Of a stretch of DNA of 64,000 nt, positions 3,111-14,398 are shown one piece after another. Both the position numbers and the translations under genes were made by a program. Numbering within the stretch: position 1 is the stretch's first letter; each line of letters opens with the position of its first letter. The notes under the pieces were generated by a model. That model was given only the letters and a program-made list of their open reading frames with translations, was not told where the DNA came from and did no database searches. The stretch covers positions 1 to 64,000 of the forward strand of contig JAGWON010000010.1 in assembly GCA_028871055.1 (NCBI GenBank), read 5' to 3'. Source of the DNA: Alphaproteobacteria bacterium (GTDB lineage Bacteria; Pseudomonadota; Alphaproteobacteria; ATCC43930; CGMCC-115725).

Positions 3111-3199
3111 CACCCCCCACCCGTGCCCGCCCCCTCAAGGGGGGAGGGACAAAAAGGAAATCCCCTCCCCCTCGAAGGGGGAGGGTTGGGGTGGGGGTG
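3111..3199. repeat. C/G-rich palindromic intergenic repeat between livG and livF
   Basis: An 89-base block built from runs of C then G: CACCCCCCACCCGTGCCCG on the left, GGGTTGGGGTGGGGGTG on the right, with two inner hairpins (CCCCCTCAAGGGGGG and CCCCCTCGAAGGGGG). It is the only large spacer in the transporter operon. It resembles the high-copy intergenic repeats common in alphaproteobacteria and could fold in the mRNA between livG and livF. Confidence 0.7.
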
Positions 3200-3989: not shown

Positions 3990-4016
3990 CGACTTTTGCC
4001 GAAGCCGGCGTAAATG

Positions 4017-4045
4017 TTCCTCACGCTGAGCTTGTCGAAGCGCGC
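4017..4045 (+). repeat. Left inverted repeat bracketing the GIY-YIG gene
   Basis: TTCCTCACGCTGAGCTTGTC followed by GAAGCGCGC. The reverse complement of 4376-4406 reads TCCTCACCCTGAGCGAAGTC then GAAGGGCGCAC, so the two copies face each other on either side of the GIY-YIG gene. A third copy lies at 321-351. Confidence 0.65.
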
Positions 4046-4066
4046 ATGATCGCGACGCAGTCTGTC

Positions 4067-4351
4067 TTACCGTGGTCCGCGCGCGAGCATACGTAACGCC
4101 TCGACATCCCCGCGGATCAACGCTTCTTTCTTCGCCCGCGTCCATCCTTTCAACTGACGCTCGGCCGCAATCGCGTCGGTGATCCGATCGAACTCCTGAT
4201 GATAGACGAGGCTGACGGGCCGCCGCCGGAACGTGTAACCGCCGAAGCTGCCATCGTTATGTTGCGCGAGTCTTTGCTCGAGAGCGGCGCACGTGCTGCC
4301 GACATAGTACGAACCATCCGAGCAGCGCAGGATGTAGACAAACGCGCTCAA
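4067..4351 (-). CDS. GIY-YIG nuclease superfamily protein
   Basis: A 94-residue single-domain protein of the UPF0213/YhbQ-like GIY-YIG group. It starts MSAFVYILRCSDGSYYVGST, which carries the YIL and YVG versions of the GIY-YIG motif, followed by an Arg (LEQRLAQHN) and a Glu in the QEFDRITDAIAAERQLKGW helix. These match the catalytic layout of the family, which hydrolyses DNA in the cases studied. The stand-alone bacterial members have mostly unknown roles. The gene is bracketed by inverted copies of a short repeat (4017-4045 and 4376-4406), an arrangement reminiscent of a small mobile unit. It runs opposite to livF, with no obvious operon partner. Confidence 0.85.
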   Translation of the reverse strand: MSAFVYILRCSDGSYYVGSTCAALEQRLAQHNDGSFGGYTFRRRPVSLVYHQEFDRITDAIAAERQLKGWTRAKKEALIRGDVEALRMLARGPR

Positions 4352-4375
4352 CGATCTACCCGCTGCACAACGACC

Positions 4376-4406
4376 GTGCGCCCTTCGACTTCGCTCAGGG
4401 TGAGGA
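4376..4406 (-). repeat. Right inverted repeat bracketing the GIY-YIG gene
   Basis: Plus strand reads GTGCGCCCTTCGACTTCGCT then CAGGGTGAGGA. It is the inverted partner of 4017-4045, with differences at the centre (GAA instead of TT, and one extra base). Together they bound a 390-base unit holding only the GIY-YIG gene. Confidence 0.65.
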
Positions 4407-4449
4407 TATTTCTTGACGGCATCAAGCAGGCCGTCGGCTTTCGATTATG

Positions 4450-5412
4450 TTACCGCCAGTCGTCGATCGCGTAGATCTCGGGCCGGTTGTAGCCGGCGCC
4501 GTCGGGGCGATGCATGGCGACGCCGATCAGGTCGGCGCGGAAGCCGCGCTCGCGCATCGCGCGATAGGCGCCGTCGCGCGCGCGATTGACGCCGGCGACG
4601 AGACGACTGGCGCCGCGCACGGCGGCGAGCCGCTCGCACGCCTCGACCAAGCGCATGAAGCCGGCCGCGTCGCCGGGCCGGACACAGGCGAACTTGACGA
4701 AAAGCACGCCGCTGCCGGCCTCGCTGCCGGCACCGCCATGGCAAAGGGCGAAGCCGGATATTCCGCCGCCGTCGCGCAGCAGCACGGTGTCGCCCAGGCC
4801 CTGGGTGGCGATCGCTTCGATCTCGTGCGTCAGGTCGAGACCGGGAAAGACCGCGTCCGACACGGCGCGGCAGGCGGCGCGGGCGGCGGCGCGGGCGGCG
4901 GGTGGCAGGTCCGAGAGGAGGTTGGCGTGCTCTCCTATTCCGTCATTCCCGCGCAAGCGGGAATCCAGAGCGACCGACGACAGCACCGGCGTCAGGTGCT
5001 GCGGCACGAAGCCATAGCTCTCGTAAAGATGGACGTGCTTGGGGCTCGCCGGAAAGGTGAAGAGGCCGGCAAGGGCGAAGCCACGCGCGGCGATGAAATC
5101 CATCGCCGGCCGCATCAGCAACCGTCCGATGCCGCGGTCGGCATACGCGGGGTCGACCGTGAGCGGCCCGAGGACGAAGACGCTGCCCCAATCCATGCCG
5201 ACGATGCTGCCGACGATGCGGCGATCCCGCTCGGCGACGAAGCAGGGGCGCGGATCGGTCGTCCAGCGCCCGCGCAGCACCTGGGCGTCGCCGCGGAAGC
5301 GGCTCGGGTCGGGCAGGCCGAATTGCGTGCCGAAGGCGAGACGGTAGACGCGGTCGGCTGCGGCAAGGTCGTCGCTGCCCATCGGGCGAACGACGGCGGC
5401 GCTATCGGTCAT
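4450..5412 (-). CDS. GNAT-family N-acetyltransferase with two domains
   Basis: A 320-residue protein starting MTDSAAVVRPMGSDDLAAAD at ATG 5412. The first GNAT domain covers about residues 8-145, with the acetyl-CoA loop in DPAYADRGIGRLLM and the end motif LYESYGFVPQ. A second, weaker GNAT-like domain fills the C-terminal half (GFALCHG, ERGFRADLIGVAM). GNAT enzymes move an acetyl group from acetyl-CoA to an amine; the acceptor here is unknown. The linker contains DSRLRGNDG, which is the translation of an intergenic palindromic repeat (4941-4970) inserted in frame. The open frame extends upstream of the chosen start, but only into repeat and terminator sequence. Confidence 0.8.
   Translation of the reverse strand: MTDSAAVVRPMGSDDLAAADRVYRLAFGTQFGLPDPSRFRGDAQVLRGRWTTDPRPCFVAERDRRIVGSIVGMDWGSVFVLGPLTVDPAYADRGIGRLLMRPAMDFIAARGFALAGLFTFPASPKHVHLYESYGFVPQHLTPVLSSVALDSRLRGNDGIGEHANLLSDLPPAARAAARAACRAVSDAVFPGLDLTHEIEAIATQGLGDTVLLRDGGGISGFALCHGGAGSEAGSGVLFVKFACVRPGDAAGFMRLVEACERLAAVRGASRLVAGVNRARDGAYRAMRERGFRADLIGVAMHRPDGAGYNRPEIYAIDDWR
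4941..4970. repeat. Palindromic repeat inside the acetyltransferase gene
   Basis: CGTCATTCCCGCGCAAGCGG then GAATCCAGAG, with perfect arms ATTCCCGC and GCGGGAAT around GCAA. This is the common intergenic repeat whose translation gives SRLRGNDG. A related form occurs between genes at 14299-14398. Here it is read through in frame on the minus strand between the two GNAT domains. Confidence 0.8.
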
Positions 5413-5467: not shown

Positions 5468-5511
5468 CGTCCCCGCTCCCCGCCTGCGCGGGGACAAGCT
5501 TCGCGGGGACG
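5468..5511. repeat. Palindromic repeat (CGTCCCCGC family)
   Basis: Outer arms CGTCCCCGC and GCGGGGACG enclose CTGCGCGGGGACAAGCTTC. It lies in the gap upstream of the acetyltransferase, which is transcribed leftwards. It appears to be another member of the dispersed palindrome families seen in this window. Confidence 0.6.
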
Positions 5512-5540
5512 ACGACCTACGGAACGGACGAGAGATCGGC

Positions 5541-5613: not shown

Positions 5614-5955
5614 TTATCGGCGGGCTTTCAACATGAGGCACGCCGCGTCCGGGTCGGCAAAGAAGGCATGCATTTGTCGCGTCTGTCGGCGAAAGACCTG
5701 AGTCAGGGTATCCGTGGTCGTATCGCGGCTTCGGACCCAAATGACTCGCGGTGGAAACCCGCGCAAGACGCTCAGATCGTAGAAATCGGAATCCAGCGTC
5801 ACGATGGCAAAGCCGTGCTCCCGCGCGTATTGCCAGATTTCGTCGTCGGACCCGTGCATCAACCCGACATGACGGACGTGGGTCGACTGCGGAAAATCGT
5901 CGAGAATCGTCGATACAAGGCGATGAGACAGATTCGCGTCGAAGAGGAGCCTCAC
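5614..5955 (-). CDS. DUF5615 PIN-like toxin candidate
   Basis: A 113-residue protein with a GTG start at 5955 (VRLLFDANLS). The FDANLS motif, the SDDEIWQYA helix and the TLDSDF motif supply the acidic residues typical of DUF5615 PIN-like proteins. Such proteins are proposed ribonuclease toxins paired with DUF433 antitoxins. The GTG overlaps the stop of the upstream DUF433 gene by four bases, so the pair is translationally coupled. A longer open frame upstream is the shadow of the DUF433 gene. The fold is clear from motifs; toxicity is inferred from the family. Confidence 0.82.
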   Translation of the reverse strand: MRLLFDANLSHRLVSTILDDFPQSTHVRHVGLMHGSDDEIWQYAREHGFAIVTLDSDFYDLSVLRGFPPRVIWVRSRDTTTDTLTQVFRRQTRQMHAFFADPDAACLMLKARR

Positions 5956-6197
5956 GCGTCGCCGGTTACCAGCCGGCGCTCGCGATCGGCGGCGAATTCC
6001 AGGCAGGCGCGGATATCTTCGCGCTCGAGGTCGGGATAATCGCGCAAGATGTCCGCTTCGCTCATGCCATTGGCGAGCCAGCCAAGCACGTCGTAAACCG
6101 TGATGCGCAAGGACCGGATGCACGGGCGGCCACCGCGCTTTCCGGGCTCGATCACAATGCGGGATTGGTAGCTCACCGGGCGAAAATACTCTTTCAC
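5952..6197 (-). CDS. DUF433 family antitoxin candidate
   Basis: An 81-residue protein. It shows the DUF433 pattern IVIEPGKRGGRPCIRSLRIT followed by VYDVLGWLANGMSEADIL and DYPDLEREDIRACLEFAA, a winged-helix-like small domain. DUF433 proteins usually precede a DUF5615 partner and are thought to act as the antitoxin and DNA-binding autorepressor. The stop overlaps the GTG start of the partner gene. The pair sits between two nearly identical terminators (5541-5580 and 6320-6360). Confidence 0.85.
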   Translation of the reverse strand: MKEYFRPVSYQSRIVIEPGKRGGRPCIRSLRITVYDVLGWLANGMSEADILRDYPDLEREDIRACLEFAADRERRLVTGDA

Positions 6198-14298: not shown

Positions 14299-14398
14299 CG
14301 TCACCCCGCGCAAGCGGGGGTCCAGGGCAACAGCCGAAATCTGTGCCGAGGAAGCTGGAGTCTCTTGCCCTGGATTGCCGCTTTCGCGGCAATGACGG
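14299..14398. repeat. Composite palindromic repeat between deacetylase and AsmA gene
   Basis: Left part CGTCACCCCGCGCAAGCGGG then GGTCCAG, right part CTGGATTGCCGCTTTCGCGG then CAATGACGG. The ends are mutually inverted, with two inner hairpins. It is the same broad family as 4941-4970 and 13290-13381. The two converging genes end on either side of it. Confidence 0.75.

Follow-up and report, generated by a model that had tools for sequence, protein, structure and literature searches.

A gene for a small GIY-YIG nuclease lies between two inverted hairpin repeats in the window, the 64,000-nucleotide stretch of DNA analysed here, and across 240 genomes of the class such genes tend to be paired with repeats of their own. 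This pairing of gene and repeat is well supported. The best reading of it, which we hold at a probability of about 0.7, is a REP system like RAYT/REP in which a GIY-YIG (Slx1-like) nuclease replaces the HUH transposase; the nuclease probably also moves the repeats.

The nuclease gene and its flanking repeats

The sequence-only reading had described a single GIY-YIG gene enclosed by inverted copies of a short repeat, and both copies are found on either side of the ORF at 4067-4351: CCTCACGCTGAGCTTGTCGAAGCGCGC at 4019-4045 on the left and CCCTTCGACTTCGCTCAGGGTGAGG at 4381-4405 on the right. The unit size of 390 nt given there must be revised, as the extra stretch relative to the same site in a same-genus genome runs from 3990 to 4449 and measures 460 nt. 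The features of the window that bear on the argument are the following.

4067-4351, minus strand: GIY-YIG nuclease gene of subfamily A, an ORF with a TTG start encoding 94 aa, assigned by Pfam and alignment.
4019-4045, plus strand: left REP-like hairpin repeat of type A, CCTCACGC-TGAG-CTTG-TCGAA-GCGCGC, from the sequence and a motif search.
4378-4405, minus strand: right REP-like hairpin repeat of type A, CCTCACCC-TGAG-CGAAG-TCGAA-GGGCGC (minus-strand reading), from the sequence and the pattern match G000:C3:4382-4399.
4406-4432, no strand assigned: probable REPIN linker remnant ATATTTCTTGACGGCATCAAGC, recognised by eye and resembling the joiner of head-to-head repeats (L018-L020).
252-345, no strand assigned: degenerate head-to-head repeat pair (REPIN), its right core at 323-337 found by motif and its partner and linker by eye.
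3990-4449, no strand assigned: 460 nt that separate the livF-like gene from the GNAT gene, missing at the same place in the same-genus genome G242 (a gain here or a loss there).
4942-4967, plus strand: type B (CGTC) REP GTCATTCCCGCGCAAGCGGGAATCCA, inside the GNAT gene, from a pattern search.
14300-14324, plus strand: type B (CGTC) REP pattern match, from a pattern search.

The two repeats that flank the gene belong to one family and are not identical: the middle part is 1 base longer in the right copy, and a compensating pair distinguishes their arms (GC..GC versus CC..GG). The family motif CTGAGCNTGTCGAAG occurs in 15 copies in the 3.07-Mb genome of the window (G000) versus 0 for a reversed-pattern control, and several of the copies form head-to-head pairs with a linker like TTTCTTTATGGCATTAAGAAA. 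The right flank of the gene probably keeps an apparent half of a REPIN linker. A further copy at 321-351 had been taken for a solo repeat; the copy is real, with a core at 323-337 that carries one mismatch, but it has a degenerate partner at ~252-281 and a linker containing ATGGCATTGAGAAA, and by our reading it looks like one half of a worn head-to-head pair of the kind seen elsewhere in the genome.

The type B pattern matches the window's genome 67 times versus 0 for the reversed pattern. Its copy at 4942-4967 lies in frame within the GNAT acetyltransferase gene (4450-5412, minus strand), where it is translated as DSRLRGNDG, a stretch that the same-genus GNAT homologue (L112) lacks. Elsewhere in the window, an inverted-repeat motif of the CCCTCCCCCTTGAGGGGGAGGG type occupies 3127-3190, in the gap between two ABC-transporter ATPase genes, and a hairpin sequence (CCCCGCCTGCGCGGGGAC...) is located at 5477-5512, upstream of the GNAT gene. 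Two neighbouring small ORFs at 5614-6197 (minus strand) presumably resemble a DUF433-type antitoxin and a DUF5615-type toxin.

The sole Pfam match of the window protein is GIY-YIG (64.8 bits, E = 9e-18); NCBIfam returned no match. The protein keeps the conserved residues Y6, Y16, G18, R27, H31, and E64, which are identical across 16 aligned rows (two of which are one protein), and in an alignment of 33 subfamily A rows Y6, G18, and R27 are invariant while Y16 and E64 are conserved in at least 90%. It contains a GIY-YIG domain with the set of Tyr, Tyr, Arg, and Glu, which we take to be the catalytic residues of this domain. In an AlphaFold2 model (mean pLDDT 91.3), the best fold matches in the PDB are At-HIGLE and Slx1 (Z 7.5-6.4 over 86-93 residues, rmsd 3.2-4.5), followed by UPF0213 (Z 6.3) and then I-TevI (Z 5.6); values of Z below 8 are not strong alone, yet they agree with the sequence match. 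Weak rows (ribosomal proteins and others, Z ≤4.4) were set aside as unrelated. The closest solved sequences are the UPF0213 proteins BH0048 (E = 1e-18) and EF2693 (E = 5e-16). Identity as an HUH/Y1 tyrosine transposase was rejected, with Pfam giving GIY-YIG alone and the model fitting the GIY-YIG fold, and a role in anti-phage defence was likewise set aside, as neither the window protein nor one protein of subfamily B matched anything in PADLOC-DB at E values up to 0.01.

Another GIY-YIG gene of the same genome, at C13:20872, is a relic with one TGA whose start lies ~35 nt from a copy of the window's repeat; by score it belongs to subfamily B, despite adjoining a repeat of the window's family. 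A stop-free subfamily B gene (G000:C6:39061-39279, L002) is situated beside a different hairpin repeat, GTGGATGCCCGGC...GCCGGGCATGACG.

Pairing of nuclease subfamilies with repeat types

The 240 genomes surveyed contain two clear groups of small GIY-YIG genes. Subfamily A, the window's kind, is defined by matches at E ≤1.3e-22 (the next value is 4.2e-15) and is present in 25 genomes; subfamily B is defined by a score of at least 97 bits with the B profile (the next value is 68.8) and is present in 68. When 10-mers were counted without bias in the flanks of 24 A loci, CTCAGGATGA was present close to the gene at 18 loci and at a distance from it at 0. Alignment of the left flank to the right flank gave a score of at least 15 at 19 of 25 testable A loci (L029, L045, and L051 were skipped for too little flank) and at 41 of 56 B loci (taken from the 96), versus 0 of 152 control windows, which are probably mostly coding. 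When flanks were measured from the ORF ends, a choice that often excludes the repeat of A genes, 13 of 26 A loci and 65 of 96 B loci passed, against 0 of 190 control windows. A comparison of intergenic regions mends the coding bias of the controls only partly: a type A element is present in 91 of 140 intergenic regions adjoining the gene versus 5 of 93 other intergenic regions of the same loci, and in both gene-adjoining regions at 32 of 70 loci.

The same arrangement was observed at named loci, for which the best 80 of 574 relatives were taken and all 80 kept. Matching flanks (score at least 15) were found at 68 of the 80 versus 0 of 198 control windows. The named loci include members of Reyranella, Bradyrhizobium, Rhizobium, Methylobacterium, and Sphingomonas, as well as single records labelled Janibacter, Zixiibacteriota, Cloacimonadota, and Binatia, for which mislabelling of the contig is possible. 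Among the 12 loci that score below 15 are all four from Brucella/Ochrobactrum (L177, L183, L184, and L185). These four carry a subfamily A gene at one common site with unmatched flanks and have at least one tagged element near each; in this group, the gene may have been co-opted for a different purpose. Five small GIY-YIG genes that we labelled YhbQ-like (L048, L057, L066, L085, and L095) have no matching flanks (0/5), a soft control given that they were separated by sequence after their low scores had been seen. At four other loci (L022, L025, L026, and L027), the reading frame of the A gene runs into the downstream repeat, which encodes the C-terminus of the protein (HPSTSSG, PELVEG, etc.).

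The type A repeat is composed of the tags TGAG and TCGAA, an inner part of mostly 4 or 15-34 nt, and variable outer arms (ATCC/GGAT, ATGC/GCAT, ATGG/CCAT, or ACCC/GGGT). Selection by the tags only yielded 319 type A elements near the gene, at 99 of 109 loci and on both sides in 73, with a density of 4.07 per kb near the gene versus 0.25 per kb farther away. The arms of these elements pair at positions 1-5 with frequencies of 0.83, 0.79, 0.72, 0.56, and 0.62, compared with shuffled means of 0.62, 0.51, 0.43, 0.39, and 0.54. The type B repeat has the tags GTCA and TCCA or CCCA and occurs with 33 different paired stems. Near B genes, 95 tagged elements have at least 7 unbroken pairs inside GTCA/TCCA, and the A-T pair of the tags themselves raises 7 to 8. 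The density of type B elements is 1.98 per kb near the gene versus 0.10 per kb farther away; a strict-tag element is found within 250 nt at only 46 of 96 B loci, and on both sides in 25. Fixed tags combined with arms that change by compensating pairs are expected of a site that is recognised in part through its sequence and in part through its shape.

Dispersed copies are often arranged in pairs. In G267, 72 of 92 listed type A elements stand in close pairs, and 35 of 37 such pairs are head-to-head, most gaps measuring 23-27 or 35-43 nt; the 92 elements derive from about 100 listed places, after seven overlapping double matches and one chance-like match were dropped, in a genome that has 270.

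Thirty-three genomes hold at least two small GIY-YIG genes in the set, and the left and right flanks of the same gene score at least 18 for 55 of 90 genes, versus 14 of 252 comparisons between genes within a genome (Wilcoxon p = 2e-11). One of these genomes is G123, with ten B genes and one A gene: own flanks match in 6 of 11, and 0 of 110 cross comparisons reach 18.

The association extends to repeats away from the gene. With genome size in the model, the log net type A count across 240 genomes gives t = 11.3 for gene A and 0.5 for gene B, and the log net type B count gives t = 9.4 for gene B and −0.5 for gene A; each repeat type tracks its own gene and not the other. Type A repeats are by no means equally common without their gene: the median count is 29 in the 25 genomes with gene A and 1 in the 215 without it. 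For type B, the medians are 15.5 with gene B and 2 without. The genomes are related and hence non-independent, which makes genome-level p-values too small; in the milder tests within families holding both states, the expected direction was seen in 11 of 14 families for A (p = 0.029) and in 16 of 19, with 4 ties, for B (p = 0.002). In the window's genus, 34 repeats accompany gene A in G000, and G240, G241, and G242, without the gene, have 7, 2, and 2; in a second genus, G087, G200, and G267 have gene A and 97, 84, and 270 repeats, and G266, without it, has 4, these gene-less congeners including incomplete genomes (G266, 78%; G241, 85%). Repeat subtype also clusters on the nuclease tree (32 changes versus a shuffled mean of 51.9), in a test that covers 99 of 109 loci (the remaining 10 have no element and hence no label) and that is confounded with host descent.

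Exceptions occur in both directions. At least 10 net type A matches are held by 15 of the 215 genomes without gene A; a profile search for A genes in those 15 returned nothing above 70 bits (A genes score ~114-159) and no match at all in 8. Similarly, 12 of 172 genomes without gene B hold at least 10 net type B matches. The clearest exception is G105, with 87 type A and 105 type B pattern matches at 99% completeness, in which neither an A nor a B nuclease gene was found; recent gene loss is perhaps the explanation there. Repeats can therefore exist without the gene, after gene loss or through another enzyme. Fewer than 10 net fixed-pattern matches are present in 5 of 25 genomes with gene A and in 26 of 68 with gene B, partly because the arms vary.

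The unit at its genomic sites and alternative explanations

Sites with and without the unit occur among related genomes and would reflect either its gain or its loss. At the site in G242 (L112) that corresponds to the window's, livF (87% identical) and the GNAT gene (63% identical) abut, with 0 bases between the stop codons. In the second genus, the pccB-pccA gap is 10 nt in G266 and 2 nt in G200, whose A gene lies elsewhere, and in G087 and G267 this gap holds the entire repeat-gene-repeat unit. A unit is found in the pccB-pccA gap of G056 as well, a genome from another family. The sequence-only reading had proposed to look for joint absence of gene and repeats at syntenic sites, and this is what G242, G266, and G200 display, with no fixed locus across relatives. 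Between two Rhizobium-like genomes (L205 and L209), a unit of ~590 nt is inverted while its collinear flanks are 90-92% identical. The unit ends within the repeats or next to them, and ordinary homologous recombination between the inverted repeats could account for the inversion. Gene A is single-copy in 21 of 25 genomes, with two A matches each in G208, G028, G012, and G163 (the second of G163 has a stop). The site of the unit is common to sets of congeners in Bradyrhizobium, Rhizobium, and Brucella/Ochrobactrum, and the unit is found at more than one place within several genera. Both of the 2 genomes in the genus of G123 carry the gene, and that genus contributes no empty site.

A minimal mobile unit had been suggested for the arrangement in the window, and part of that suggestion stands, as the unit is present, absent, or inverted at one site. 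Extended to a minimal transposon, in which repeat, gene, and repeat travel together and the dispersed repeats are leftovers that have lost the gene, it would also account for the four genomes with two A matches and for a distribution scattered over families, with single cases in records from other phyla. We nevertheless regard it as quite improbable: a single gene copy in most genomes is set against up to 270 repeats, the site is often common to congeners, and what is dispersed is a closely spaced head-to-head pair, not a deleted unit. GIY-YIG homing endonucleases are known, and homing, with the gene cutting an uninserted site and being copied in by repair, would be in keeping with the existence of sites that lack the unit and with its presence in the same pccB-pccA gap in two families. 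This explanation is very improbable in our view; no intron or intein was seen, the repeats are intact on both sides such that insertion would leave the site undestroyed, several genera have the unit at several places, and the tens to hundreds of paired repeats dispersed in the genome are left unaccounted for by a homing site.

The main rival, which we consider unlikely, is that the nuclease recognises the hairpins to resolve, trim, or police them and that something else spreads the repeats. A fold closest to the Slx1 branched-DNA nucleases would suit such an enzyme, and excerpts of a study of Caulobacter discuss its small COG2827 endonucleases as repair enzymes and give CC3518 an SOS box (PMC1839093). 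Control of repeats is compatible with the pairing in cis and in trans, and also with gene-less genomes that hold repeats; it is at odds with the far larger number of repeats in gene-bearing genomes and with the near lack of them in the gene-less congeners examined, and it offers no reason for the gene's own place between matching, gene-specific repeat pairs. To coincidence we give almost no credence. REPs are mainly intergenic according to excerpts of a survey (PMC3733652), and small mobile genes could land in the same gaps in which REPs gather. This explanation is disfavoured and was set aside on the evidence of the control windows, of the flanks compared between genes, which are gene-specific inside one genome, of the other intergenic regions, in which type A elements are rare compared with those adjoining the gene, and of the YhbQ-like genes; the association in trans, specific to gene type, also speaks against it.

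The REP system with a GIY-YIG nuclease remains our preferred explanation, and the unit looks more like a REPtron, with one resident enzyme gene and many dispersed repeats, than like a small transposon. In it, a resident nuclease gene is bracketed by its cognate hairpin repeats, with further copies dispersed, many as REPINs. A repeat or repeat pair would extrude to form a hairpin or cruciform, the lagging strand being one possible place, and the Slx1-like nuclease may then nick the hairpin at its tagged base. Replication or host repair could join the repeat pair, once freed or copied, at another place, and the resident gene, flanked by the same sites, would occasionally be acquired, deleted, or flipped together with them. 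Branched DNA is the substrate of Slx1-like folds, which is consistent with nicking of a hairpin or cruciform but does not prove it. The sequence-only reading had raised a nuclease acting on its own flanking repeat; of this, the pairing is strongly supported by association in cis and in trans, and binding, cleavage, and mobilisation of the repeats by the nuclease, as well as the joining step, are inferred.

Relation to known repeat systems and nucleases

REPs reach high copy number in many bacterial chromosomes, and those of the GTAG kind have a known partner enzyme. Like the REPtron (RAYT/TnpA-REP), the system described here places its resident enzyme gene between short hairpin repeats of its own at most but not all loci, together with many dispersed repeats, many of them head-to-head (REPINs); enzyme subtype is matched to repeat subtype, and several systems can share one genome. 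It differs in the enzyme, a GIY-YIG nuclease in place of the HUH/Y1 transposase, and in the tags, TGAG...TCGAA or GTCA...TCCA in place of GTAG. Cleavage and rejoining of REPs have been reported for TnpA-REP in the excerpted text of PMC6006769, whereas the GIY-YIG system is known from sequence alone.

The type B repeats have a described counterpart. In the excerpts of Di Nocera, De Gregorio and Rocco 2013, CGTC repeats are found mainly in Alphaproteobacteria, mostly as head-to-head dimers, and are said to have no dedicated transposase, only fortuitous associations with transposase genes (PMC3733652). Type B repeats fit these CGTC REPs as described in that text, with a CGTC/TGTC head, a variable stem of ~8 bp or more (8-9 bp), a short loop, and a CCA-like tail; unlike the CGTC REPs described there, they are found here flanking a GIY-YIG gene. 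Type A repeats fall outside the stem and loop sizes that the same excerpts give for CGTC REPs (4-5 nt loop, 8-9 bp stem), having a longer inner part and the tags TGAG and TCGAA.

Among nucleases, the closest solved folds are the structure-specific GIY-YIG enzymes Slx1 and At-HIGLE, which are eukaryotic, unlike the bacterial nuclease studied here; we know of no link of either to repeats. Slx1 relies on Slx4 in fungi and animals, according to excerpts of PMC9071465. The closest solved sequences, the UPF0213/YhbQ-like bacterial GIY-YIG proteins (BH0048, EF2693), are of the same size as the window's nuclease; the five YhbQ-like genes differ from it in lacking matching flanks. Caulobacter crescentus has three small COG2827 endonucleases, the role of which is described as unknown in the excerpts of PMC1839093; CGTC repeats are also present in this species (PMC3733652).

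Among the papers listed, judged by titles and the starts of abstracts, none linked GIY-YIG nucleases to REPs, and ‘GIY-YIG’ and ‘extragenic palindromic’ occurred together in no paper of the searched literature; preprints and most subscription papers lie outside both searches. The repeat strings themselves were matched only in unrelated papers, among the matches listed.

By these searches, the combination of REP and enzyme is new, with an enzyme that is unrelated to RAYT and lies outside the RAYT family. We think it reasonably likely that the mobilising enzymes so far missing for the CGTC REP superfamily are stand-alone GIY-YIG nucleases, and that such nucleases also mobilise a second family (TGAG...TCGAA), one absent from the sources consulted. 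They would thereby constitute an independently evolved, non-HUH means of spreading hairpin repeats in bacterial chromosomes, made up of many distinct nuclease-repeat pairs, several of which can occur together in a single genome. The long-missing partner behind the spread of these repeats may be the GIY-YIG enzyme. With a candidate cognate nuclease for the CGTC REPs, the question of their partner enzyme can be put to a direct test that needs just a small protein and a hairpin oligonucleotide, and a possible role is offered for a common group of small GIY-YIG proteins. If true, a non-HUH enzyme would be paired with REPs, and many natural nuclease-hairpin pairs would be available for comparison.
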